Shown one piece after another: positions 28,167 through 62,798 of a DNA stretch of 64,000 nt. Made by a program: the position numbers and the translations under genes. Each line of letters opens with the position of its first letter. The first letter of the stretch is position 1. Under the pieces are notes generated by a model. It saw only the letters and a list, made by a program, of their open reading frames with translations, was not told where the DNA came from and did not search any database. The DNA is from Natronorubrum thiooxidans (GTDB lineage: Archaea; Halobacteriota; Halobacteria; Halobacteriales; Natrialbaceae). The stretch spans positions 62,001-126,000 of the forward strand of contig NZ_FTNR01000011.1 of NCBI RefSeq assembly GCF_900156475.1. Direction: 5' to 3'.

Positions 28167-29124
28167 GTCGATAGTCGAGTCACTCGAGGATCACTGCGAC
28201 GACCGAACGGAGGACGCTCCGCTTCTCGAGACGATCGTCGACGAACTCCGCACGCTTCGAGCCGATAACGACCGTCTGAAAAACCGCGTCGCGGATCTCG
28301 AGAACACTGTCGACACCCTCGAGTCCCAACTCACCGACCTCGAATCTCAGACCGACGACCTCGAGTCCAAAACCAACACCCTCGAGTCCACGACAACCGA
28401 CCTCGAGACCCGAGTCGACACGACTGAAACCGACCTCGAGCGCCTCGACGCACTCACAGATGCAACCCGAAACCGAACGGGAGCCACCAAAGCCCGCCTC
28501 GAGGAACTCCAGGCACGCGAACTCGAGAAGGGAGCCCACCTCCGCGCCGAGCACGTCGACGAACACGAGATCGACGTCCCCGACGGCAGACTCGAGAAAC
28601 TCACCAAAGACGACGGCAACGCCTACTATCGCCTGCCCAATCAAGACGACCCGCTCGACCGAAACCACAACACTACGCTTGCCCACGGCGACCTGCTCCC
28701 GATCCAGCAACTCGCCCGCATGGACGAGGACATGCGCCGGTCGACCACGAACGCCCTCCCGACACGACTCGCCGCGAAACTCTGGCAAGCCCGCACCGAC
28801 TCGAGTGTCGGCGACGATCCCTGGAAGACGGGCTGTCAGTCCATCCAAGAGTACGTCACCGCGAGCGACCTGAAACACTGGATCCGCCGCCAGGAACCCG
28901 GCACGAGCGACACCTACGCCAAAAAGCTCGTCTCGAGGACGATCGACGCGATTCTCGACCTCTCGAAAAACCGACTCGCAGTCCGCAAACGGACCGAACG
29001 AAAGAACGGCCTCGAGTACACCGAACGCCGACTCGTCCTCCCCGCGGATGCCGAGGTTCCGGGCGAGACCGACCGCTCGAGTCAATCCGCCGAGCCACCG
29101 GAGACAGTTGACGTCCGCGGGTGA
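28159..29124 (+). CDS. Long coiled-coil protein of unknown function
   Basis: 321 residues from the ATG at 28159, inside the stop of the upstream gene. Residues about 30-110 form a strong coiled coil with repeated TLES/DLES heptads (LENTVDTLESQLTDLESQTD, and on). A short AR-rich segment follows, then a folded C-terminal part: RAEHVDEHEIDVPDGRLEKL, then LPIQQLARMDEDMRRSTTNA and LSKNRLAVRKRTERKNGLEY, basic enough to touch nucleic acid. The order coiled coil plus basic HTH-like end recalls DNA-segregation or replication-accessory proteins, but I cannot assign it. It is coupled to the 126-residue protein and faces a phiH1-like repressor. The pair may be cargo of a mobile element. Confidence 0.6.
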   Translation: MSESIVESLEDHCDDRTEDAPLLETIVDELRTLRADNDRLKNRVADLENTVDTLESQLTDLESQTDDLESKTNTLESTTTDLETRVDTTETDLERLDALTDATRNRTGATKARLEELQARELEKGAHLRAEHVDEHEIDVPDGRLEKLTKDDGNAYYRLPNQDDPLDRNHNTTLAHGDLLPIQQLARMDEDMRRSTTNALPTRLAAKLWQARTDSSVGDDPWKTGCQSIQEYVTASDLKHWIRRQEPGTSDTYAKKLVSRTIDAILDLSKNRLAVRKRTERKNGLEYTERRLVLPADAEVPGETDRSSQSAEPPETVDVRG

Positions 29125-29913: not shown

Positions 29914-31056
29914 ATGTCAACTCGCGTCACTGGTGTTGCAATCACCACCCTCCTCCTTCTCGGGGTTGTCTCCACTGGATTGGTCGTGACCGCGGATTCC
30001 ACGTACGAACTAACAGCGACCGATGCAGTCGAGACACCGGAGACGTCGATCGACATCCGAGGCAGTGAGTACGCTGTTGATCATATCGCTGTCATCGAAC
30101 CGGGCGACTCGATTACCGTGAACGTCGTCTCGGATTCGAACTATTTCCTGTATCTCTATAACGAGGACGGACACTCGGAGTACGGAGAGTATCATAGCGA
30201 CAGTGTACGGAGCCTCGAGATCGGAACCACGGACGATGAGCTCGACACGAACAATCTCACTGCAGGGACTTACATGCTGTCGCTTGAACCGAATAGCGAA
30301 CGCGAAGCGGTTGTTCCGGTTGTCGTTCAAGGGTACGATCTTTCGCTCGAGTATCAGCAGCCGGCAACGGTCGATAGCGAACTCGAGATCACTGCAACGG
30401 TCGAACCGAAGGACGGCCTCGACAGGCCTGACGCTGTTGAGGTGGCGATCTGGGATGGCGATGACGTGACGGAACTCACACTTGATCACGTTGGTGGTGT
30501 GGACTACGAAAAAACGGTGCCGGCCTCAGCGCTTGGTGTCGGTGAGTATAGCGTCTACGGCGCGATCATGGGCGAGGATGAAGTCGAGGGCTATCCAACT
30601 GCTCTTGCTGTTGCGGAGGGCGAATCGATAGCTATCGTTGAAAACGACGATGACTCCGATACGAGTGGCGGGTCGGATCAAGCGAGCGACGATGATGGGA
30701 CGGTCACTGACGATGAAGCCGACGGGACGAGCGATGACGATGGGACGGACACTGACGATGAGGCCGACGAGACGAGCGATGACGGCACCGAAGCGGACCT
30801 CGATACCAACGGAGAGGAGACCGAAGACGATGGTGATGACGGGTCTGCTGGCGACGGTGACGACGCTACCGAACACACTGACGACGCTGCTAGCAATGAA
30901 TCAACGGCTGATGAGAGTTCAGTGTTGCAACCGACTGCGGATGAACAACCGGATGAGTCATCCGATGATGACGAACTCGGAATCGGTGGAACCGCAGTAC
31001 TCGCGATCGCTCTGGTAGTGCTGGCTCTTGGACACCGAGCTCGAAACGACGCGTAG
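29914..31056 (+). CDS. Secreted, membrane-anchored acidic surface protein
   Basis: 380 residues. A signal peptide fits residues 1-27 (MSTRVTGVAITTLLLLGVVS then STGLVVTADS). The next 215 residues form a beta-rich ectodomain: SEYAVDHIAVIEPGDSITVN, NNLTAGTYMLSLEPNSE and LEYQQPATVDSELEITATV look like two immunoglobulin-like domains of 90-100 residues. A low-complexity Asp/Thr/Ser/Glu linker covers about residues 245-350 and contains repeats of DGTDTDDEADETSDD type. A last helix LGIGGTAVLAIALVVLAL with basic end RARNDA anchors it. N-x-S/T sequons (NLT, NES) suggest glycosylation. There is no PGF motif, unlike its neighbour. The gene ends 102 bp before another surface protein. Confidence 0.72.
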   Translation: MSTRVTGVAITTLLLLGVVSTGLVVTADSTYELTATDAVETPETSIDIRGSEYAVDHIAVIEPGDSITVNVVSDSNYFLYLYNEDGHSEYGEYHSDSVRSLEIGTTDDELDTNNLTAGTYMLSLEPNSEREAVVPVVVQGYDLSLEYQQPATVDSELEITATVEPKDGLDRPDAVEVAIWDGDDVTELTLDHVGGVDYEKTVPASALGVGEYSVYGAIMGEDEVEGYPTALAVAEGESIAIVENDDDSDTSGGSDQASDDDGTVTDDEADGTSDDDGTDTDDEADETSDDGTEADLDTNGEETEDDGDDGSAGDGDDATEHTDDAASNESTADESSVLQPTADEQPDESSDDDELGIGGTAVLAIALVVLALGHRARNDA

Positions 31057-31158: not shown

Positions 31159-32910
31159 ATGAAGCGACATGAAGAACTCGTTACTGTGACATTCCTTGTC
31201 ACAATCATGCTCCTCGCTCCGATTGCCGGAGTCGTCGGGACTGCTGGCGCGACAAATACCTCGGGCCAGCAGGCTGACGATCCCGAGAATTACATCGAAC
31301 TCAACGATGATGTTTCCGTCTGGAAACAGGCTGCACTTCCGTTCCGGACGGCCACTGAAACGGACACGACCATCACTGAACTCCCCGGACTTTCAGTCCA
31401 GACAACGGGAGAGGGAGACAGCCCGCTAAACCGTGAGTCACTTTCAGTTTACAAGACTGGTGACACCGTTGGCTTCTCCTACGATCATTCGAACGCCGAT
31501 ACAGCCCAGTTCTCCGAGGCACAGGTCCTCATCGGACATCTCGATGAGAACGTCACCGAAGACGACGTCGACATGGATTCGTTCCCAACAACCGGTGACG
31601 AACTACTGACCGAACTGGCACAGAATAACCTCGAGGACCTCAACAATAACGTGTCGTTCGAACTGGAATCGGTCGATGACGTCACCGCCGAAGATTTCGA
31701 ATACACGCCAACGGACTCTGGCTTCTATACGTTTGTGATGGTGGAGGGTCAGGATAACCTCGACCTCGATGGCGACGATGTAACGATTGACGAATCGGTT
31801 AGCGTCATCGGGATCGAACAGCTCGTCGCTCACGACAAGCCGTCCGAGGTCAGTGTTTCCGCCGGCGAACCCGGTGATGACGTCACCTTTGATATCGAGA
31901 CCACCCTCGGTGACGATGTCAACCACGCCGTTGTGCTGTACAATGCAGACGACTTCGATGACAGTTCGATGACGTTCAACGTCACCGATGAGTTGACCAC
32001 TGATCTCTCGGTCGAGGACGTCATCATCGAACACTCGGTTGAGGAGGTCAACGGGGTGCAGAACCTCGAGGACGACGTTGAGTTCCTCGGCGAGTCGATC
32101 GAGAATCGAACGGCCAGCGGCTTCACGCAGTTCGGCGACATTATCACGTTCCTCGGCAACGACGCCGATTTCGAGACACCCGACACCGAGGCGACTGGCG
32201 AGGATACGATTGATGCATCGTCGACCGCGACCGTGGCCGGCGAGAACGCCACACTCGTTGTCGAAACTCACGGAAACTGGTCCGAAGGCGACTACCGTTG
32301 GATCCACGTCGCGATGGGATCCTCGAGCGATCAAATTCAGGCTGCAACGGGGCTCGAGACAATCGAGAAAGACGATCCTCCCGGTGGTGGCGGTGGCGGT
32401 GGCGGCATCGTTATGCCTCCGGGTGATGACGATGACGAACCGGAACTGCCAGCACCGACTGCAGTGATATCGATCGATCCTGATCCAGCAACGGTCGGTG
32501 AAGAGGTTACGTTCTCTGGTGCAGACTCAACCGATGACGAACGCAACATCATCTCCTACGACTGGACGATCGATGGCGACAGTTTAGAAGGTGAGACGAT
32601 CACGAAGACGTTCAAAGAGCCGGGAACGTACGATGTTGAACTTACTGTGACGAACGACTTCGCACAGTCGGATACCGAAACAACGAAGCTGACCGTGAAG
32701 AAGGGTCACAAGCCGGATGACGATGACGATGATGGACCTGCCACTGATGACGATGGAGGCGTTGACGACGGCGACACCGATGCGGATGATGGTGAGCCAG
32801 CCGATGATGGTGATGATGAAGACGGTGACAGCATTCCTGGCTTCGGTCTGACTGCAACACTCGTTGCACTCCTCTCGATCGCACTGCTGGCACTTCGAAA
32901 ACAGGAATAG
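31159..32910 (+). CDS. PKD-domain surface protein with PGF-CTERM anchor
   Basis: 583 residues. A signal peptide is visible (VTFLVTIMLLAPIAGVVGTA). The ectodomain of about 350 residues has many Asp and Val, beta-strand patterns and sequons (NVT, NLT, NRT, NAT). A Gly-rich hinge PPGGGGGGGGIVMPPG separates it from one PKD domain: PTAVISIDPDPATVGEEVTF, SYDWTIDGDSLEGETITKTF and GTYDVELTVTNDFAQSDTET. Then an acidic linker (DDDDDDGPATDDDGGVDDGD and on) leads to the sorting signal SIPGFGLTATLVALLSIALL with basic end RKQE. PGF-CTERM is known to be cut by archaeosortase A and replaced by a lipid. The mature protein should be a glycosylated lipoprotein-like surface molecule. It follows the other surface protein on the same strand but has its own promoter. 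Confidence 0.83.
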   Translation: MKRHEELVTVTFLVTIMLLAPIAGVVGTAGATNTSGQQADDPENYIELNDDVSVWKQAALPFRTATETDTTITELPGLSVQTTGEGDSPLNRESLSVYKTGDTVGFSYDHSNADTAQFSEAQVLIGHLDENVTEDDVDMDSFPTTGDELLTELAQNNLEDLNNNVSFELESVDDVTAEDFEYTPTDSGFYTFVMVEGQDNLDLDGDDVTIDESVSVIGIEQLVAHDKPSEVSVSAGEPGDDVTFDIETTLGDDVNHAVVLYNADDFDDSSMTFNVTDELTTDLSVEDVIIEHSVEEVNGVQNLEDDVEFLGESIENRTASGFTQFGDIITFLGNDADFETPDTEATGEDTIDASSTATVAGENATLVVETHGNWSEGDYRWIHVAMGSSSDQIQAATGLETIEKDDPPGGGGGGGGIVMPPGDDDDEPELPAPTAVISIDPDPATVGEEVTFSGADSTDDERNIISYDWTIDGDSLEGETITKTFKEPGTYDVELTVTNDFAQSDTETTKLTVKKGHKPDDDDDDGPATDDDGGVDDGDTDADDGEPADDGDDEDGDSIPGFGLTATLVALLSIALLALRKQE

Positions 32911-34171: not shown

Positions 34172-35392
34172 TCAGAAGCCAAAGATCGGCACGAATCGGA
34201 AGGTGAGGAAGGCACTGACCGTCGACAAGATTGGGACGACGTTTTGCATCAAGACGACACGGGCCGTCGTCGAGGGGTCGAAGAGGTCGGAGGCCTTCGG
34301 GATGTCTTGGGGTTCTTCCTCACCGATGCTGGGTGAGCGTTCGCCTTCCTCTTCGGCGGTCAAAGCACCGACGGAGACTCTGGTTTCTTCGCCGGCTTTG
34401 GCTTCCGCCAGCGTCGTCGTCCGGGTCGCTCGTCCCCAGCCCAGCCCGATGATGCTCATCGTTGCGATGACGACGAAACTCGCGGGAATGCCGATCCACG
34501 AGAGCCCGATAACGATCCCCGAACTGATGATTGCGACGACGATCGCCGCGGTCAGTGGGAGGTTCGTGATGTCGTTCCCGAGCGTATCGAGTGTCCGACG
34601 GGCGATCGTGAAACAGCCGATCGTGACGGCCACAGAGCCGATCAGGATCAGGGGCACCATCTCGACGTCGCCGGTGCCGTAGATCGGAGCGATGGCGTTG
34701 GCAATGTTGCTTGTCCCCGACGAAAAGGCCATCAGACAGCCGATCCCGATGACGACGAGCGCACCCGAAATCTCGCGTCGATCGGCGTTCTCGCCGAACT
34801 GGAGTCGCGGAGCGAGACCCGAGCGGTCGATCGTGACCATCTCGCGTCCCTCTCGGTTGCCCTCGATGGCGACCCACGCGTTGATCCGCGGATAGAAATA
34901 GCGGCCGACGATGCCAGCCACCCAGAAGCCGATGATCGGGGCGACGATCCACCAGATAACGATCTCGCCCAGGATCGCGAGATTGAGTTCACCGGTCGCG
35001 AGTCCGAGTGCGGCGATCGCCCCCACAGCTGTCATCGAGGTCGAGGCGGGGACCCCGGCGTAGTTGCCCACGAACAGCGCGCCGCCGATGAAAAAGAGGA
35101 CGGCGACGTTCGAACGCATCGTGAAGATGGCGGTGTCGGTGACGAGTTCGCCGCCGAGGGTTTCGACGACCTGCGGACCGATGGTGATCGCGCCGAGGAA
35201 GAAAAAGATCGACATCAATGCTGCGGCCATCAGTTTCGTGATCACGTTGGCACCGACAGCCGGCCCGAACGCGGGTCCAGTTGTTGCGCCGCCGATATTA
35301 TAGCCAACGAACACCGCAACGAGAAGCCCCACGATAAGCAGTACTTCTGTCACACCCGTACGCACATCCTCTGCCCCTAAAAACACGCCCAT
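34172..35392 (-). CDS. PiT-family anion (phosphate) permease, paralogue 1
   Basis: 406 residues, with about ten hydrophobic segments. The family's two inverted halves can be seen: [20 protein letters not shown] near residue 30 and [19 protein letters not shown] near residue 240. In characterised PiT carriers the repeated motif is GANDVANA; here the Asp is replaced in both halves (GATTGPAF and GTSNIANA), so the usual cation-binding residue is absent. [11 protein letters not shown] and [19 protein letters not shown] (short form) are other conserved pieces. A cytosolic loop of about 45 residues ([20 protein letters not shown]) lies near the C-terminus. Phosphate uptake is the family expectation; another anion is possible. 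It is divergent from the repeat-protein gene at 35692. Confidence 0.8.
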
Positions 35393-35691
35393 TTGCGGTT
35401 ACGACTGCCGTCCGCGGACGGTCGGCCCGCCGCTCGAGTCACTCGCCGTCTCGCCGGGGTCGTCCCGGAGACGTGTCCGTCGGGCGAGGGCTCACGCGAG
35501 GGCTCGATCCTAAATGACTTCAACAGTCACACCTTGGATTACAGTATCATGTACTCCGACTGGACACTCGTCTCGAGGAACTGTCAGGGGCGACCCGGAT
35601 CGTCACGCCAGTGTGCAGGAACGATCCCCGCCGATGAACGCTTAGGGACCGCCCGAACAGTACGATCCGCGCGTGCCGGTGGCGATCATTC
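35393..35691. other. Divergent promoter region between the permease and the repeat protein
   Basis: Just under 300 bp. It separates the start of the PiT gene from the GTG start of the repeat protein and must hold both promoters. ATTACAGTATCATG at 35538-35551 is the only AT-rich word. No further feature is recognised. Confidence 0.4.
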
Positions 35692-36591
35692 GTGCTGAAT
35701 CCGGTCCGGGTCGACGCAGCCGTTGACCTCGCGTACGGGGCGTTGATCGCCCTCTCGATCGTGTTGATTATGATGGTCGGAACGAACGTCGGGATCGCGT
35801 TCGGGGTCGGCGTGTTCGCCTCGTACGTCATCCACGTCGTCTGGAAGATGGCGCGCTTCGATCCCGACTGGATGACCAGAGCCGTCCAAGAATCGGTCGA
35901 GGAAAGCGTGGGTGAGACGGTCGAGAAGAGCGTGGGCGAGACGGTCGAAGAGAAGGTCGGCGAAACAGTCGAGAAAAGCGTTGGCGAGACAGTCGAAGAG
36001 AAGGTCGGCGAGACGGTCGAGAAGAGCGTCAGCGAGACAGTCGAAGAGAAGGTCGGCGAGACGGTCGAGAAGAGCGTGGGCGAGACGGTCGAAGAGAAGG
36101 TCGGCGAAACAGTCGAGGAGAGCGTCAGCGAGACGGTCGAGAAGACGGTCGGCGAAACCGTCGAGGAAAGCGTGGGCGAGACGGTCGAAGAGAAGGTCGG
36201 CGAAACCGTCGAGGAAAGCGTTGGCGAGACGGTCGAAGAGAAGGTCGGCGAAACCGTCGAGGAGACGGTCAGCGAGACGGTCGAAGAGAAGGTCGGCGAA
36301 ACCGTCGAGGAGACGGTCAGCGAGACAGTCGAAAAGAAGGTCGGCGAAACCGTCGAAGAGGCCGTCGAACGAACCGTCGGCAAACACCTCGACGAAATGC
36401 AAGCGGAGGTCGAAGCCGTCGACGAGCGGATCGATCGCCGTCCTCGAGAGGACGAAGTCGAGGAGTTAATTAACCGATCCACTGACGACGAGGAAGCGGA
36501 TCGCACCGACGACGAGGAAGCGGATCGCACCGCCGACAAGGAAGCGGATCGCACCGCCGACAAGGAAGCGGATCGCACCGCCGACAACTGA
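35692..36591 (+). CDS. Membrane protein with 8-residue tandem repeats
   Basis: 299 residues, starting GTG at 35692; no in-frame ATG precedes the membrane segments. Two hydrophobic helices (LAYGALIALSIVLIMMVGTN and VGIAFGVGVFASYVIHVV) come first. From about residue 69 to 223 there are about 19 tandem copies of an octapeptide V(G/S)ETVE(E/K)(K/S/T), so the encoding DNA is a 24-bp repeat. The tail (KHLDEMQAEVEAVDERIDRR) is helical, and a second short set of octapeptides EADRT(A/D)D(K/E) ends the protein. An 8-residue period does not give a classical coiled coil; it could form a long rigid helix or 8/3 bundle in the cytoplasm. Function is unknown. It lies between two permease genes and UspA. Confidence 0.75.
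   Translation: MLNPVRVDAAVDLAYGALIALSIVLIMMVGTNVGIAFGVGVFASYVIHVVWKMARFDPDWMTRAVQESVEESVGETVEKSVGETVEEKVGETVEKSVGETVEEKVGETVEKSVSETVEEKVGETVEKSVGETVEEKVGETVEESVSETVEKTVGETVEESVGETVEEKVGETVEESVGETVEEKVGETVEETVSETVEEKVGETVEETVSETVEKKVGETVEEAVERTVGKHLDEMQAEVEAVDERIDRRPREDEVEELINRSTDDEEADRTDDEEADRTADKEADRTADKEADRTADN
35898..36370 (+). repeat. 24-bp tandem repeat array, about 19 copies
   Basis: Units of the type GTCGGCGAGACGGTCGAGAAG repeat with a 24-bp period, with changes mainly at third codon positions and at two coding positions. The array is entirely within the coding frame of the membrane protein. It is a candidate for copy-number change by slippage. Confidence 0.85.
36486..36590 (+). repeat. 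Second 24-bp tandem repeat, four copies
   Basis: GAAGCGGATCGCACCGCCGA recurs every 24 bp, the last three copies being almost identical. It encodes the EADRT octapeptides at the C-terminus of the same protein. The near-identity shows a very recent expansion. Confidence 0.85.
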
Positions 36592-36767
36592 GACGGGTTG
36601 CTGTTCCCATGTGCCGGTGGCCCCGCAGGGCCCCGCAGGGAGGGTCGCGGGTGCCTCGTCACTGACTGCTAGCGGTCCGTCTGAGTGATCGCGATCCCGG
36701 TAGTGTCAGACCGATGCGCTACCATCCCTGATATTGGTCGCCAATCCACCGTTTTTTGCGGTATCGG

Positions 36768-37193
36768 TCACCGAACGACCACGACCGGAACCGGCGACTG
36801 ATGGACGACCTTCTTGGCAACGTTACCGACGTAGAGGTTATCTGCGACGGTCCCGCCGTGACTCCCGACCACAACCGTATCGTAGTCGTCGGCTCGGTTG
36901 ATGATCGCCCGAACGGGATGCCCGAGTTCGATGACGGTCTCGAGGTCCGCATCGCCCTCGGCGTCAGCGACGAGTTCATGTGCACGCTCGAACGTCGGTG
37001 CTGCAAGGTCCTGTGCGGCCTCCTCGAAGTCCTCAGCAAGTGCGAGGCCCGACGCCTCTCCCCACAGCGGAGACGGCTCGCCGACGACGCGCAAGACAGT
37101 GATCTCGGCTGTTGGATAGGCCTCAAGGGCGTACTCGAGGGCGTGTTCGCTCATCTCGGAGCCGTCCATCGGAACGAGAACGCGTGAAATCAT
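36768..37193 (-). CDS. Universal stress protein, UspA family
   Basis: 141 residues from the ATG at 37191-37193 (MISRVLVPMDGSEMSEHALE). The ATP-type UspA core is complete: VLVPMDGSEMSEHALEYAL with the first Asp, ELGHPVRAIINRADDYDT, and VVVGSHGGTVADNLYVGNVA, which corresponds to the nucleotide-binding G-x2-G-x9-G motif, with Asn where Ser/Thr is usual. Binding of ATP is therefore likely but not certain. VVHQSPVPVVVVR ends the protein as in the family. The gene is on the same strand as, and about 40 bp after, a PiT-family permease. UspA proteins are often next to transporters in archaea and may regulate them; that is inference. Confidence 0.9.
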   Translation of the reverse strand: MISRVLVPMDGSEMSEHALEYALEAYPTAEITVLRVVGEPSPLWGEASGLALAEDFEEAAQDLAAPTFERAHELVADAEGDADLETVIELGHPVRAIINRADDYDTVVVGSHGGTVADNLYVGNVAKKVVHQSPVPVVVVR

Positions 37194-37234: not shown

Positions 37235-38398
37235 TCAGACGAATGGGACCGCAATAAAGAATCCATAGGCGAGCAGCGTCGACATCGACGGGCCGATGAT
37301 CCACATCGAGACGTACTTCATGATCGCTCGTGGGTTGAACAGGTTCTCCGCACTCAGGGCCTCGTCGGACTCTTCTTCACCGATCGGTGTGATTGGCGCG
37401 TCCGGTTCTGCCTTCAGTGCCCCCATCGTCATCTCCCTGTCGACGTCCCCACGAACGGCCTCTCGAGCCGTCACGGGACGGGTGGCCCGCCCCCAGCCCA
37501 GGCCGACGATCGTCATCACCGACGCCATCACGAGACTGATCGGAATGCCGGCCCACGAGAGTGCGGTTGTGATCGTCGAGGCGGTGATCATGACGACCAG
37601 TGCCGCCAGCAGCGGGATATCGCTGAGTTCGCTGCCGACGGATTCCATCGTCCGGCGAGCGATGGTAAAGCCGCCGAGTCCGATCGCGACCGTCGCGACG
37701 ATGATGGCGGTGTTGACCTCGAGTGCGCCGCTGCTGACCAGCGGGGCGACCGCGTTCGGGACGTTGCTCGCACCGGCGCTAAACGCCATGTAACAGCCGA
37801 TGACGAGGACGGTTATCGTCCCGCCGAGTTCCTGGTACGTGGTGTTCGGTCCGAGCGCCGGTTTCGGAACCGAGCCGCTGCGATCCAGCCCGAGCAACGG
37901 GCCCTCCGAGGAGCTGATCTCGAACCGGCGGTTGAGTTCGGGATAGATGTACCGTCCGACGGTCGCACCGATCCAGAGCGCGAGGATCGGGGTGACGATC
38001 CACCACGAGACGATCCACCCGATCGTCTCGAAGTTGAGCGTGCCCGTCGCCAGCCCCAGTCCCGCGATCGCCCCGACAGTCGTCATCGACGTCGGGACGG
38101 GCACGCCGAAGACGTTCGCGATGAGAATACCCAACCCGATGAAAAAGAGGACGGCGACGCCAGCCGCAAGCGAGATTTCGATCGCGATGATGTCGCCGCT
38201 GAGGGTGTCCATTACGTTTCGGCCAACGGTCCAGCCGCCGAGAAAGACGAAGAACGTCATCAGTGCGGCGGCCGTGGCTTTCCCGAGGAGCCCGGCTCCC
38301 ACGGCTGGACCCCACGCGATCCCGGTCGACGAACCGCCGATATTGAATCCAACGAAAATCGACGCGATAACTCCAACGAGTAGAACGGTTTCGACCAT
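37235..38398 (-). CDS. PiT-family anion (phosphate) permease, paralogue 2
   Basis: 387 residues with about ten hydrophobic segments. It is a clear paralogue of the protein at 34172 and has the same order of blocks: FVGFNIGGSSTGIAWGPAVG near the N-terminus, VPVPTSMTTVGAIAGLGLAT, SWWIVTPILALW, and MAFSAGASNVPNAVAPLVSS near residue 210. As in that protein, the Asp of the canonical GANDVANA motif is missing in both halves. GWGRATRPVTAREAVRGDVD marks the cytosolic loop. The upstream spacer (38399-38537) is AT-rich; TTATTTTACAAAT on the minus strand is a likely TATA element. It is followed by UspA, probably in one transcript. Confidence 0.8.
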   Translation of the reverse strand: MVETVLLVGVIASIFVGFNIGGSSTGIAWGPAVGAGLLGKATAAALMTFFVFLGGWTVGRNVMDTLSGDIIAIEISLAAGVAVLFFIGLGILIANVFGVPVPTSMTTVGAIAGLGLATGTLNFETIGWIVSWWIVTPILALWIGATVGRYIYPELNRRFEISSSEGPLLGLDRSGSVPKPALGPNTTYQELGGTITVLVIGCYMAFSAGASNVPNAVAPLVSSGALEVNTAIIVATVAIGLGGFTIARRTMESVGSELSDIPLLAALVVMITASTITTALSWAGIPISLVMASVMTIVGLGWGRATRPVTAREAVRGDVDREMTMGALKAEPDAPITPIGEEESDEALSAENLFNPRAIMKYVSMWIIGPSMSTLLAYGFFIAVPFV

Positions 38399-38537: not shown

Positions 38538-40394
38538 TTACACACCCCAGAAGAACGCGATGCCGAGCACGGTCACGACCGAGAGCAGCAACTGCAGCGG
38601 CGCGCCGACACGGAAGTAGTCGCTAAAGCGGTAGCCACCGGGGCCGTAGACGAACAAGTTCGTCTGGTAACCGATCGGCCCCAAAAACGAGGTGCTCGCG
38701 GCGAACATGACCGCAAAGACGAACGCGAGCGGATTTGCACCGATCCCCGACGCTGCGGCCGCTGCAACCGGAATCAACAAGATGACACTGGCATTGTTGC
38801 TGATCAGCTCCGTGACCAACCCCGTCACGATATAGAACACCCACAACACGACGAGCGTCGGGAGGAACCCGGCTGTCGAAACGACCAGAAACGCGAGGTA
38901 GGCGGCCGCACCCGATTCCTCGAGGGCGATCCCGAGCGGGATCACGCCCGCGAGCAGGAAGATGATGTCCCACTCGACGGCGTCGTACAGTTCGTTGGGG
39001 TCGAGGACGCCACTGACGACCATCGCAACGACACCGGCAAGCGCCGAGAGCAGGATTGGATAGAGATCCAGCGCGGCAACGGCGACGACGCCGATCATGA
39101 TGGCGACGGCGATCGGCGCTTTATCAGCTCGGTACTCGGGCTGGGGTGGCTCGCGGGCGACGATCACGTCGTTGCGTCGCGACAGTTGATCGAGTGTGTC
39201 TGGCGGGGCCTGAACGAGGAGTGTGTCGCCGACGTCGAGTCGTTTGCCGACGATGCGCTCGCTGATGAGCGCTCCGTGGTGGCGAAGCCCAAGGACAGCG
39301 GCGTTGAACTCCTGGCGAAACGCTTCGGGATCGAGTCGCTCGCCGACCAGTCGAGAGTCAAGCGAGATGACGAGTTCCGTGATAATCCCCGCCTCGTCGT
39401 CGGTCGATAGCTCTGCGTCGGATTGAGGGTTGCCGACCAGTTCGACACCCGGGGCATCCTCGAGCATCGTGATCGCGTCCCTGTTCGTCCGGACGACGAG
39501 CACGTCGCCCTCGCTGAGTCGGGTCTCCTGTCGCGGGGCAACCGACCGATCCTCGTCGTGGACGACCTGCACGACGTCGATCTCGGGGCCGAGTTCGTCG
39601 GTCGCGGTCCCGACCGTCTCGTCGACGTACGGCGATCCGGGGACGACGGCGACTTCGACGATGTAGTCACCGACGTCGTACTCCTCGACGTAGTCCGCCC
39701 GCGCCGGGACCCGCTCGGGCAGGAGGTAGTGGCCGATGAAGATCAGATACAGGGCCCCGACGATGACAACGATGGCACCCAGTTGGGTAAACTCGAACAT
39801 CGAGAACCGATGGAGTTCGGGGTAGTCTGCCCCAAGTCGGGCGCTGATGTCGCTTGCGAGGATGTTTGTCGAGGTGCCGATGAGCGTGAGCATGCCGCCG
39901 ACCTGTGAGGCATAGGACAGCGGGATCAACAGCTTCGACGGCGATGTGTTCCCGCGGTTGGCGACGTCGGTGACGACCGGCACCAGCAACGCGACGACGG
40001 GCGTGTTGTTCAAAAAGCCGGAGACAGGACTGGTCGCAAGCACCGTCGCGAACAGCTGTTTCCGAACGCTGTCACCCGCATACGCGGCCATTCGTCGGCC
40101 GAGTTCCTGTACGAGCCCCGTTCGGGCAATACCGCCACTAAGGATCAACATCGCGAGCACCGTGATCGTCGCGTCGTTGGCGAACCCGGAGATCCCCGTG
40201 CTCGAATCGATCCCCGTCCAGGGCTCTAAGACGACCAGCACAACGATCAGCAAGATCGCCGTGACGTCGATCGGCAGCCGCTCGGTGACGAACAGCACGA
40301 GCGCGAACGCGACAACGCCGAAGACGACGAGCATCTCGGTCGTCAGCGCTGGCTGTGTCACCGGCTGCTGGGCGAGCGCCAGACTGTCTGCCAT
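38538..40394 (-). CDS. SLC13-type transporter with two RCK-C (TrkA-C) domains
   Basis: 618 residues from the second ATG at 40392-40394 (MADSLALAQQP), or one more if the first is used. The first half has about five membrane helices, with VVLEPWTGIDSSTGISGFAN, ATSPVSGFLNNTPVVALLVP and QVGGMLTLIGTSTNILASDI, the S-N-T-P and GTSTN motifs that bind substrate and Na+ in the DASS/SLC13 family. Two cytosolic RCK-C domains follow at about residues 220-300 and 315-395 (EVAVVPGSPYVDETVGTAT and VISLDSRLVGERLDPEAF regions). The second membrane half ends with LISNNASVILLIPVAAAAAS, LAFVFAVMFAASTSFLGPIG and QTNLFVYGPGGY. Such proteins are annotated as sulfate, phosphate or dicarboxylate carriers; the substrate is not readable. 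Confidence 0.85.
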   Translation of the reverse strand: MADSLALAQQPVTQPALTTEMLVVFGVVAFALVLFVTERLPIDVTAILLIVVLVVLEPWTGIDSSTGISGFANDATITVLAMLILSGGIARTGLVQELGRRMAAYAGDSVRKQLFATVLATSPVSGFLNNTPVVALLVPVVTDVANRGNTSPSKLLIPLSYASQVGGMLTLIGTSTNILASDISARLGADYPELHRFSMFEFTQLGAIVVIVGALYLIFIGHYLLPERVPARADYVEEYDVGDYIVEVAVVPGSPYVDETVGTATDELGPEIDVVQVVHDEDRSVAPRQETRLSEGDVLVVRTNRDAITMLEDAPGVELVGNPQSDAELSTDDEAGIITELVISLDSRLVGERLDPEAFRQEFNAAVLGLRHHGALISERIVGKRLDVGDTLLVQAPPDTLDQLSRRNDVIVAREPPQPEYRADKAPIAVAIMIGVVAVAALDLYPILLSALAGVVAMVVSGVLDPNELYDAVEWDIIFLLAGVIPLGIALEESGAAAYLAFLVVSTAGFLPTLVVLWVFYIVTGLVTELISNNASVILLIPVAAAAASGIGANPLAFVFAVMFAASTSFLGPIGYQTNLFVYGPGGYRFSDYFRVGAPLQLLLSVVTVLGIAFFWGV

Positions 40395-40514
40395 CAACGT
40401 TCATCTGTGGCCACACCGACAGGACATGTAACGATTCTGCACGGAATTCGAACAGTGTCGGGGTGATGGTTGTTGCCCGAAACCGTCGCCTTTACTCGAG
40501 TTCGACGCGCGCAC

Positions 40515-61646: not shown

Positions 61647-62798
61647 TCAGTCAGCCAGCGCCCGCAGCTCCTCGAGTCGTCCTGACTCGACGCCGGCCAG
61701 TACGACCGCGGCGAAGACCGTCTCGCCGTTGGATCGCGGTGCGTCCCCGCCCAGCACGCCGGTGCCGCCGACGGTCGACTGGAGCGTCCGGCGGCCCTCG
61801 GCGATCGCCTGCCGGTTGAGCCAGGCTGGCGGCCCACCGACGATCAGCAGGCCGCGCTCGGCCGTCTCGGGGTCGCACTCCAAAGAGAGTTTTCCGCGAA
61901 TCCCCTTACGAACGACGGTCTCGACGGCGCTGACGGCCTCGCTCGTCTCGACCTCTCGCTCCGTCGGCAGGAGGCCGAGGCCGAACCGTGAACTGGTCGT
62001 CTCGACCGCCTGCTCGCCATAGCCGAGGCTGACGACGGCCGACTCGGTACCGAGGATCCGCTCGATGTCGCTTGCATCGATGACGTTCTGCGCGACAGCC
62101 CCAGTCGACTCGCCGTCACCGCCGGCGAAGATGGCTGCGACTCGAGTCGCCAGCTCGCGGTTAGACCGATTCCTCGCGTCTGCGACCGTCTCGCCGGGCC
62201 GAAGCCACGTCTCGTTGTCGAACAGCATGATCGCGCTCGCGACGCCCTCGAGGGCCTCGAGTGTCCGGATCGCGTGCGACGCGGCGGCCGGCCGCGGTGG
62301 CTCATCGCTTTCGGTGGTCGCGGTCATCCCCGCGTGTGGCCCGCGGTCGGCCGCCACAACGTCGGGATCGAACTCCCGGTCGGCCGGCAGCGTCGCGAGG
62401 ACGTACACCGGCGCGTCGACGGCCCGCTGAAGTGCGGCGACCAGCGCGGGTGCCGTCGGCCCGCCGGTCGTGCCGCCGAGGCCGACCGTAACGAGAACGG
62501 CGTCGGGAGCCGTCGACCCGCTTCGTTCGCGTACCGCGAGGAGGTCGTCGACGACGTTCTGGCCGCTTTCGAAGCCCTGCTCGAGGTCGCCCTCGAGCCC
62601 AGCCGATTCCTCGAGGGCAGTCCCCTGTCCGTACTTGGCACGGTGTGACTCCGGGATGACGGTTCCCTGGAGGGACGCTTCGTCCGTATCGAACGCGAAG
62701 ACGTCAGTGAGAAACGGGTGATCCGCCGGCTCTGCGGCCCGAATCGCGTCGGCGAGTCGACAGCCCGCGCCGCCGAGTCCGACTACCTCGAGTTGCAT
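61647..62798 (-). CDS. Divergent tubulin/FtsZ-superfamily protein
   Basis: 383 residues from the ATG at 62796-62798 (MQLEVVGLGGAGCRLADAIR); an earlier frame is less likely. The N-terminal Rossmann loop GLGGAGCRLADAI is FtsZ-like. The family signature GGGTGTG is altered to GLGGTTGGPTAPAL at about residues 106-119, so GTP binding is uncertain. VTVGLGGTTGG is followed by PVYVLATLPADREFDPDVVA (T4/T5 region), then MLFDNETWLRPGETVADARN (R-N near the T6 position) and NRSNRELATRVAAIFAGGDG, typical of the superfamily. The C-terminal domain is present (GLGLLPTEREVETSEAVSAV). Haloarchaea have several such proteins (CetZ, FtsZ3-type) that control cell shape. I cannot place it more exactly. It is 85 bp downstream of endA, on the same strand. 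Confidence 0.8.
   Translation of the reverse strand: MQLEVVGLGGAGCRLADAIRAAEPADHPFLTDVFAFDTDEASLQGTVIPESHRAKYGQGTALEESAGLEGDLEQGFESGQNVVDDLLAVRERSGSTAPDAVLVTVGLGGTTGGPTAPALVAALQRAVDAPVYVLATLPADREFDPDVVAADRGPHAGMTATTESDEPPRPAAASHAIRTLEALEGVASAIMLFDNETWLRPGETVADARNRSNRELATRVAAIFAGGDGESTGAVAQNVIDASDIERILGTESAVVSLGYGEQAVETTSSRFGLGLLPTEREVETSEAVSAVETVVRKGIRGKLSLECDPETAERGLLIVGGPPAWLNRQAIAEGRRTLQSTVGGTGVLGGDAPRSNGETVFAAVVLAGVESGRLEELRALAD

Follow-up and report, generated by a model that had tools for sequence, protein, structure and literature searches.

A tetrad-repeat membrane protein of haloarchaea as a candidate accessory subunit of a CysP-like permease

In a window of 64,000 nucleotides from Natronorubrum thiooxidans (positions 62,001 to 126,000 of contig NZ_FTNR01000011.1, the whole stretch analysed; coordinates below are counted from its first letter) we found a gene coding for a two-helix membrane protein with a long repetitive tail. 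Judged from sequence and genome context, we lean moderately towards the view that it serves a CysP-like anion permease of the PiT superfamily as a dedicated accessory subunit, with its long tail in the cytoplasm. Gene order and co-occurrence across haloarchaea are the evidence from which the partnership is inferred.

The repeat gene and its membrane module

35692..36591, + strand: tetrad-repeat membrane protein gene, 299 aa, GTG start (family alignment, codon-position test)
35692..35874, + strand: conserved membrane module, aa 1-61, with a short N-terminus, two helices, a short loop and WKMARFDPDWM
35731..35781, + strand: predicted membrane helix 1, about aa 14-30 by hydropathy (helix 4-29 in the AlphaFold model)
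35794..35844, + strand: predicted membrane helix 2, about aa 35-51 by hydropathy (helix 31-55 in the AlphaFold model)
35884..36399, + strand: tetrad-repeat tail, 43 consecutive hydrophobic residues 4 apart (DNA array 35894-36367)
36421..36468, + strand: C-terminal motif DERIDRRPREDEVEEL, typical of Natrialbaceae members in the sequence lists
36486..36587, + strand: acidic C-terminal octads EADRTxDx, a second 24-bp array with 4.2 near-identical copies (97% match)

Comparison of the N-terminal module with 38 relatives displayed 299, 134 and 672 differences at codon positions 1, 2 and 3, respectively. This divergence pattern together with the invariant module demonstrates that the + frame 35692-36591 is coding, and on the same grounds a repetitive long open reading frame on the reverse strand (35547-36662) was ruled out as an antisense gene. 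Among repeat units compared inside the gene, 529 of 801 differences fell at third codon positions, as under amino-acid selection. Tandem Repeats Finder detected a 24-bp array of 19.8 copies at 35894-36367, which is better described by a 48-bp unit (9.9 copies, 89% match, score 645). A search of the whole genome with a tetrad probe found the repeat in this gene only.

The module of 61 residues is nearly invariant throughout the family and ends in WKMxRFDPxWM. In an alignment of 78 sequences, residues D8, D12, Y15, G16, I19, F37, G38, G40, V41, H48, W51, K52, M53, R55, F56, D57, P58, W60 and M61 were invariant. Hydropathy and the helices of the AlphaFold model support the two membrane helices described in a first-pass annotation of this DNA, and a turn of four residues joins them by hydropathy. 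If both termini of the hairpin are inside the cell, the positive charges R6, K52, R55 and R63 lie next to the ends that should then face the cytoplasm, and because of these K/R flanks the tail is predicted to be cytoplasmic. In Natrialbaceae members the usual C-terminal end is a motif resembling DERIDRRPREDEVEEL together with an acidic tract. Close relatives carry other short acidic repeats where the window has EADRTxDx; these octads are a local expansion of the C-terminal acidic tract, and their array arose by recent expansion.

Of the 125 genomes in the home family, 114 gave a match to the full protein, and with the N-terminal 80 residues as query a family member was found in 270 of 391 genomes of the class. 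A profile search matched 41 class genomes and none of the 243 from elsewhere in the phylum, class membership being assigned by kinship. Natronorubrum bangense, Natronoglomus, Natronococcus and Halovivax are among the nearest named relatives. Plasmid copies of the family gene are annotated as 'hypothetical protein' or carry no annotation. At the Halogranum rubrum loci L086 and L161 the repeat reading frame has a shifted-frame end, with unread bases (X) in L086, and this interruption is probably an assembly gap or a frame error inside the repeat.

Searches of curated Pfam and NCBIfam families with the repeat protein gave no match that reached a cut-off. Matches to Cornifin and DUF445 (Pfam), ser_rich and GvpQ (NCBIfam) and PHROG were weak or below cut-off and driven by composition; the match to phrog_36210 at 3e-13 contained no stretch that passed on its own. 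The only solved structures matching the repeat, a designed helical protein and ribosomal L17, did so by composition. A viral origin was rejected, as none of 2.9 million viral contigs encodes a relative. The archaeal division protein CdpA was the first candidate for the identity of the protein and was dropped; the literature found on it gives no sequence detail. PARCEL palindromic amphipathic repeats were dropped because the Pfam and NCBIfam searches returned no DUF285/TIGR02167-type match; the PARCEL paper reports no such repeats in Archaea. Literature searches turned up no paper describing the family.

Elsewhere in the window, the reading frame 31159-32910 (+) codes for a secreted protein that combines a PGF-CTERM sorting signal (TIGR04126, 7e-8) with a PKD-like stretch and an acidic linker, and a 45-bp repeat at 30683-30784 (+) gives a putative surface protein (reading frame 29914-31056) its acidic TSDDDGTDTDDEADE linker.

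Periodicity and predicted structure of the tail

The tail had been annotated as about 19 octapeptides and four EADRTxDx units. A recount agreed with these numbers, giving exactly 19 matches to V(G/S/D)ETVE(E/K/R/Q/A) and four EADRTxDx units. The repeats are thus real; the octad as their unit did not hold up. The real unit is the tetrad V-(E/G)-(E/K)-T, and the octad consists of two tetrads: in the window octad VGETVEEx, residues 1 and 5 are valine, and relatives lose the octad phase (VEETVEETVGETVEKTV) while keeping the four-residue phase. In the window, 43 hydrophobic residues follow one another at a spacing of exactly four, which excludes a chance origin of the periodicity. Among 2787 tetrads, 97.7% have V at position a, 78% have E or G at b, 86% have E or K at c, and 70% have T at d. 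Fourier power averaged over the members was 28 at a period of 4.0 and below 0.75 at 3.5, 3.6 and 3.66 (0.6 at 3.6). Most members have their hydrophobic period peak at 3.96-4.00, and a minority with inserted three-residue steps average 3.76-3.9. The longest unbroken runs comprise 56 tetrads (up to 224 residues) in the family and 43 in the window.

Tail length ranges from 53 to 287 residues across the family, with a median net charge of -44 (-56 in the window), and some members of 114-118 aa are almost free of repeats. The protein has 299 aa in the window, 259 aa in Natronorubrum bangense and 229-267 aa in other members of the same genus. The expected variation in copy number between strains is therefore seen as a difference in repeat number among species, the level at which the comparison was made. 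Length varies while the spacing is fixed, suggesting that the period of the tail matters and its exact length does not.

According to Hartmann and colleagues, alpha-helical coiled coils can access periods from 3.33 to about 3.9; 4.0 is stated to be inaccessible, and the most extreme period cited is 3.8, in YadA (PMC4786415). With most members at 3.96-4.00, the tail lies beyond this range. For this reason neither a heptad coil, whose mismatch to the repeat had already been pointed out (power below 0.75 at 3.5), nor the '8/3' superhelical bundle offered in its place fits the tail, as the hydrophobic period is 4.0 (8/2). Non-heptad coiled coils (hendecad 11/3, pentadecad 15/4, YadA 19/5) resemble it in their long periodicity, hydrophobic stripe and right-handed sense; in contrast, their periods reach 3.8 (PMC4786415), whereas the tetrad tail keeps to 4.0 for as many as 224 residues. 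Alpha/beta coiled coils (beta-layers) share a repeat period that strains the helix, and they include membrane-linked prokaryotic proteins; they arise from 2- or 6-residue insertions (hexads, nonads) and carry an aliphatic-A-T-K motif (PMC4786415). Neither such insertions nor this motif occur in the repeat protein, and no strand was predicted. By its period, the tail is outside the known coiled-coil classes. A neighbouring reading frame, 28281-28450 (+), encodes a textbook heptad coiled coil (LESQLTDLESQTDDLESKTNTLESTTTDLETRVDT) in 21-bp units, in contrast to the 4.0-residue period.

AlphaFold prediction with an alignment of 78 members gave a mean pLDDT of 57, with values mostly of 72-82 in the hairpin region and below 60 in most of the tail; the full model is helix or coil throughout. 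The repeat alone, predicted without an alignment, yielded two helices at a mean pLDDT of 62. These low-confidence models, with pLDDT mostly below 70, support a helical tendency of the tail, not an ordered fold. A rigid charged helix, the other form proposed earlier, may apply, both models being helical at low confidence. The composition of the tail, rich in V, T and G, costs on average 0.54 kcal/mol per residue for helix formation. Were the alpha-helix straight, the stripe of valines would make one circuit per 36-39 residues. We consider it quite unlikely that the tails assemble in an ordered way at four residues per turn (8/2) and in this form serve an anion-permease subunit as its rod in the cytoplasm; possible routes to such order are an extreme right-handed superhelix, a mixed alpha/pi helix or a lattice other than a coiled coil.

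Linkage to PiT-superfamily permeases

34172..35392, - strand: partner permease, PiT superfamily (PF01384), CysP-like, divergent from the repeat gene
36768..37193, - strand: UspA-type universal stress protein (PF00582), convergent neighbour
37235..38398, - strand: second PiT-superfamily permease (PF01384)

The repeat gene of the window is convergent with the genes for UspA and the second permease, and this arrangement, with a divergent first permease, is found in most Natrialbaceae examined. In about ten genera, the repeat gene is located immediately 5' of a PiT-superfamily permease gene on the same strand, frequently with overlapping stop and start codons. The overlaps measure 1 or 4 bp (ATGA, TGATG, TAATG) and occur in Halorussus, Halegenticoccus, Haladaptatus, Halobaculum, Haloarchaeobius, Halorientalis, Halosimplex, Haloglomus, an unnamed Haloarculaceae and others. 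The repeat gene lies 67 bp upstream of the permease gene in Halapricum; it is also upstream in Halogranum, with an assembly gap within the repeat. We counted 32 operon-type instances and 50 more in divergent or convergent orientation to a PiT gene, with some loci sampled twice. The first-pass annotation had taken the position beside two PiT-type permeases as a hint of a role in transport; operons, overlaps and co-occurrence bear out the association and make it far stronger than suggested.

Four Natrialbaceae loci (L068, L079, L080, L123) carry a shorter paralogue 175-265 bp upstream of a second permease gene. This permease is 64-66% identical to the first, with which the long member stays, and duplication of repeat gene and permease as a pair is the simplest reading. 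In the permease tree, the operon-type permeases fall on one side of a branch (1 change) with weak support (38); in the module tree the operon label needs 2 changes, and shuffled labels never approached the result of either tree.

Halorubrum, several Natrinema, Salinarchaeum and Halovenus have no PiT gene within about 8 kb of the repeat gene. Operon structure or translational coupling, as looked for in a permease accessory subunit, was found except in Halorubrum and some others. Given the unlinked loci, the repeat protein might work by itself or have partners other than the permease. At the Halorubrum loci (L125-L127, L139, L141, L148, L153 and others), in the region about 1 kb downstream of its start, the family gene has a Trm1-like neighbour, and it often precedes an amino-acid permease-like gene, not PiT, by about 100-140 bp.

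Since all 382 genomes searched contain some PiT-superfamily protein, co-occurrence was tested on close homologues of this permease. For genomes from other families than the home one, the best permease E-value had a median of 1e-159 with the repeat gene versus 1e-121 without it. A close homologue (E <= 1e-139) was present in 159 of 177 such genomes with the repeat gene and in 10 of 107 without it (Fisher 8e-45); 18 genomes had the repeat gene and no close homologue. Within 19 mixed genera (threshold 1e-145), permease presence to absence was 99:16 with the repeat gene and 6:65 without, which is the fairer table, as genomes are not independent; all these co-occurrence values were taken by hand from listings. 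In genus g33, which is likely Halorubrum and whose sampled loci are unlinked, the permease was found in 44 of 45 genomes having the repeat gene. Joint gain and loss, as expected of a permease accessory subunit, was therefore observed, also within genera.

Alignment of the window permease (34172-35392) with the phosphate transporter 6l85 revealed that the Asp of both GANDVANA motifs is replaced, D to T and D to N, which sets it apart from PiT phosphate transporters; altered motifs were found in nearly all partner permeases. Both signature aspartates are also replaced in CysP, D to G and D to N (PMC5840216). The NCBIfam CysP model was by far the best match of the permease. Partner permease and Bacillus subtilis CysP sulfate permease belong to one fold family, PiT, and each lacks the two aspartates, although the score of 133 bits is below the CysP cut-off of 400. 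Because the signature aspartates are missing, sulfate or another oxyanion is a likelier substrate than phosphate. A CitMHS/DASS-type permease with two TrkA_C domains, 38538-40397 (-), adjoins both PiT-superfamily permeases, which makes the region an anion-permease cluster, possibly for sulfate.

Possible roles of the repeat protein

In the accessory-subunit model, the two-helix hairpin would bind the permease in the membrane, with the short N-terminus and the long tail both cytoplasmic, as the K/R flanks suggest. The tail would be a regular, strongly acidic rod assembled from V-(E/G)-(E/K)-T tetrads, and in the high-salt cytoplasm of the cell it is most likely a helix. Through the valine stripe, tails may associate with one another or with the permease, and such contacts might cluster, stabilise or gate the permease, as a regulator or scaffold would.

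Proteins of the PhoU/DUF47 type form soluble bundles of helices, whereas the repeat protein combines a membrane hairpin with a repeat tail, and no PhoU-type profile in Pfam or NCBIfam matched it, nothing scoring above any cut-off. The likeness to PhoU-like DUF47 regulators (PhoU2/PitR) lies in the operon: bacterial pit operons pair a PhoU2/PitR gene with a PiT-superfamily permease gene, so that a small accessory gene shares one operon with the permease (PMC7326077).

The hairpin might instead only anchor a general membrane scaffold or skeleton whose tails form a cytoplasmic mesh, the permease linkage being a regulatory convenience. Very long tails of up to 287 aa with 56 tetrads would suit such a mesh, as would the lack of permease linkage in some lineages and a valine stripe that, circling a straight helix, exposes contacts on every side. 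We nevertheless consider a scaffold unlikely, since it predicts neither the overlap of stop and start codons, nor one-to-one paired duplicates, nor joint gain and loss with one permease subfamily, and would leave the members nearly devoid of repeats (114-118 aa) unaccounted for. The low AlphaFold confidence, the net charge of -56 in the window and the helix cost of the V/T/G-rich composition are what one would expect if the tail were an intrinsically disordered acidic brush or spacer, born by slippage under little structural constraint, that hydrates the membrane surface in molar salt. However, the four-residue phase is stricter than slippage or disorder needs: valine occupies position a almost throughout, Fourier power at 4.0 far exceeds that at 3.6, and the unit differences, mostly at third codon positions, have the pattern of amino-acid selection. 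A brush is thus rather unlikely.

A role in stress, proposed earlier from the adjacent UspA gene, could draw on the convergent UspA located 54-241 bp downstream in most Natrialbaceae loci. The two genes are convergent and not co-transcribed, though, and in Halorubrum as well as at most operon-type loci UspA is either missing or placed on another side. As the linkage is local, mainly to Natrialbaceae, the stress role is left without evidence and appears highly improbable.

By its kind the family would be a permease accessory protein, possibly with a new architecture. If the accessory-subunit reading is right, most haloarchaea carry an undescribed permease partner, which would give the family its first role and provide a test case for the regulation of CysP-like permeases. 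In the tail, a natural sequence keeps a period of 4.0 residues unbroken for 100-220 residues, which puts the claimed upper limit of coiled-coil periods directly to the test; 8/2 order, if true, would be a regular architecture now held inaccessible to coiled coils.
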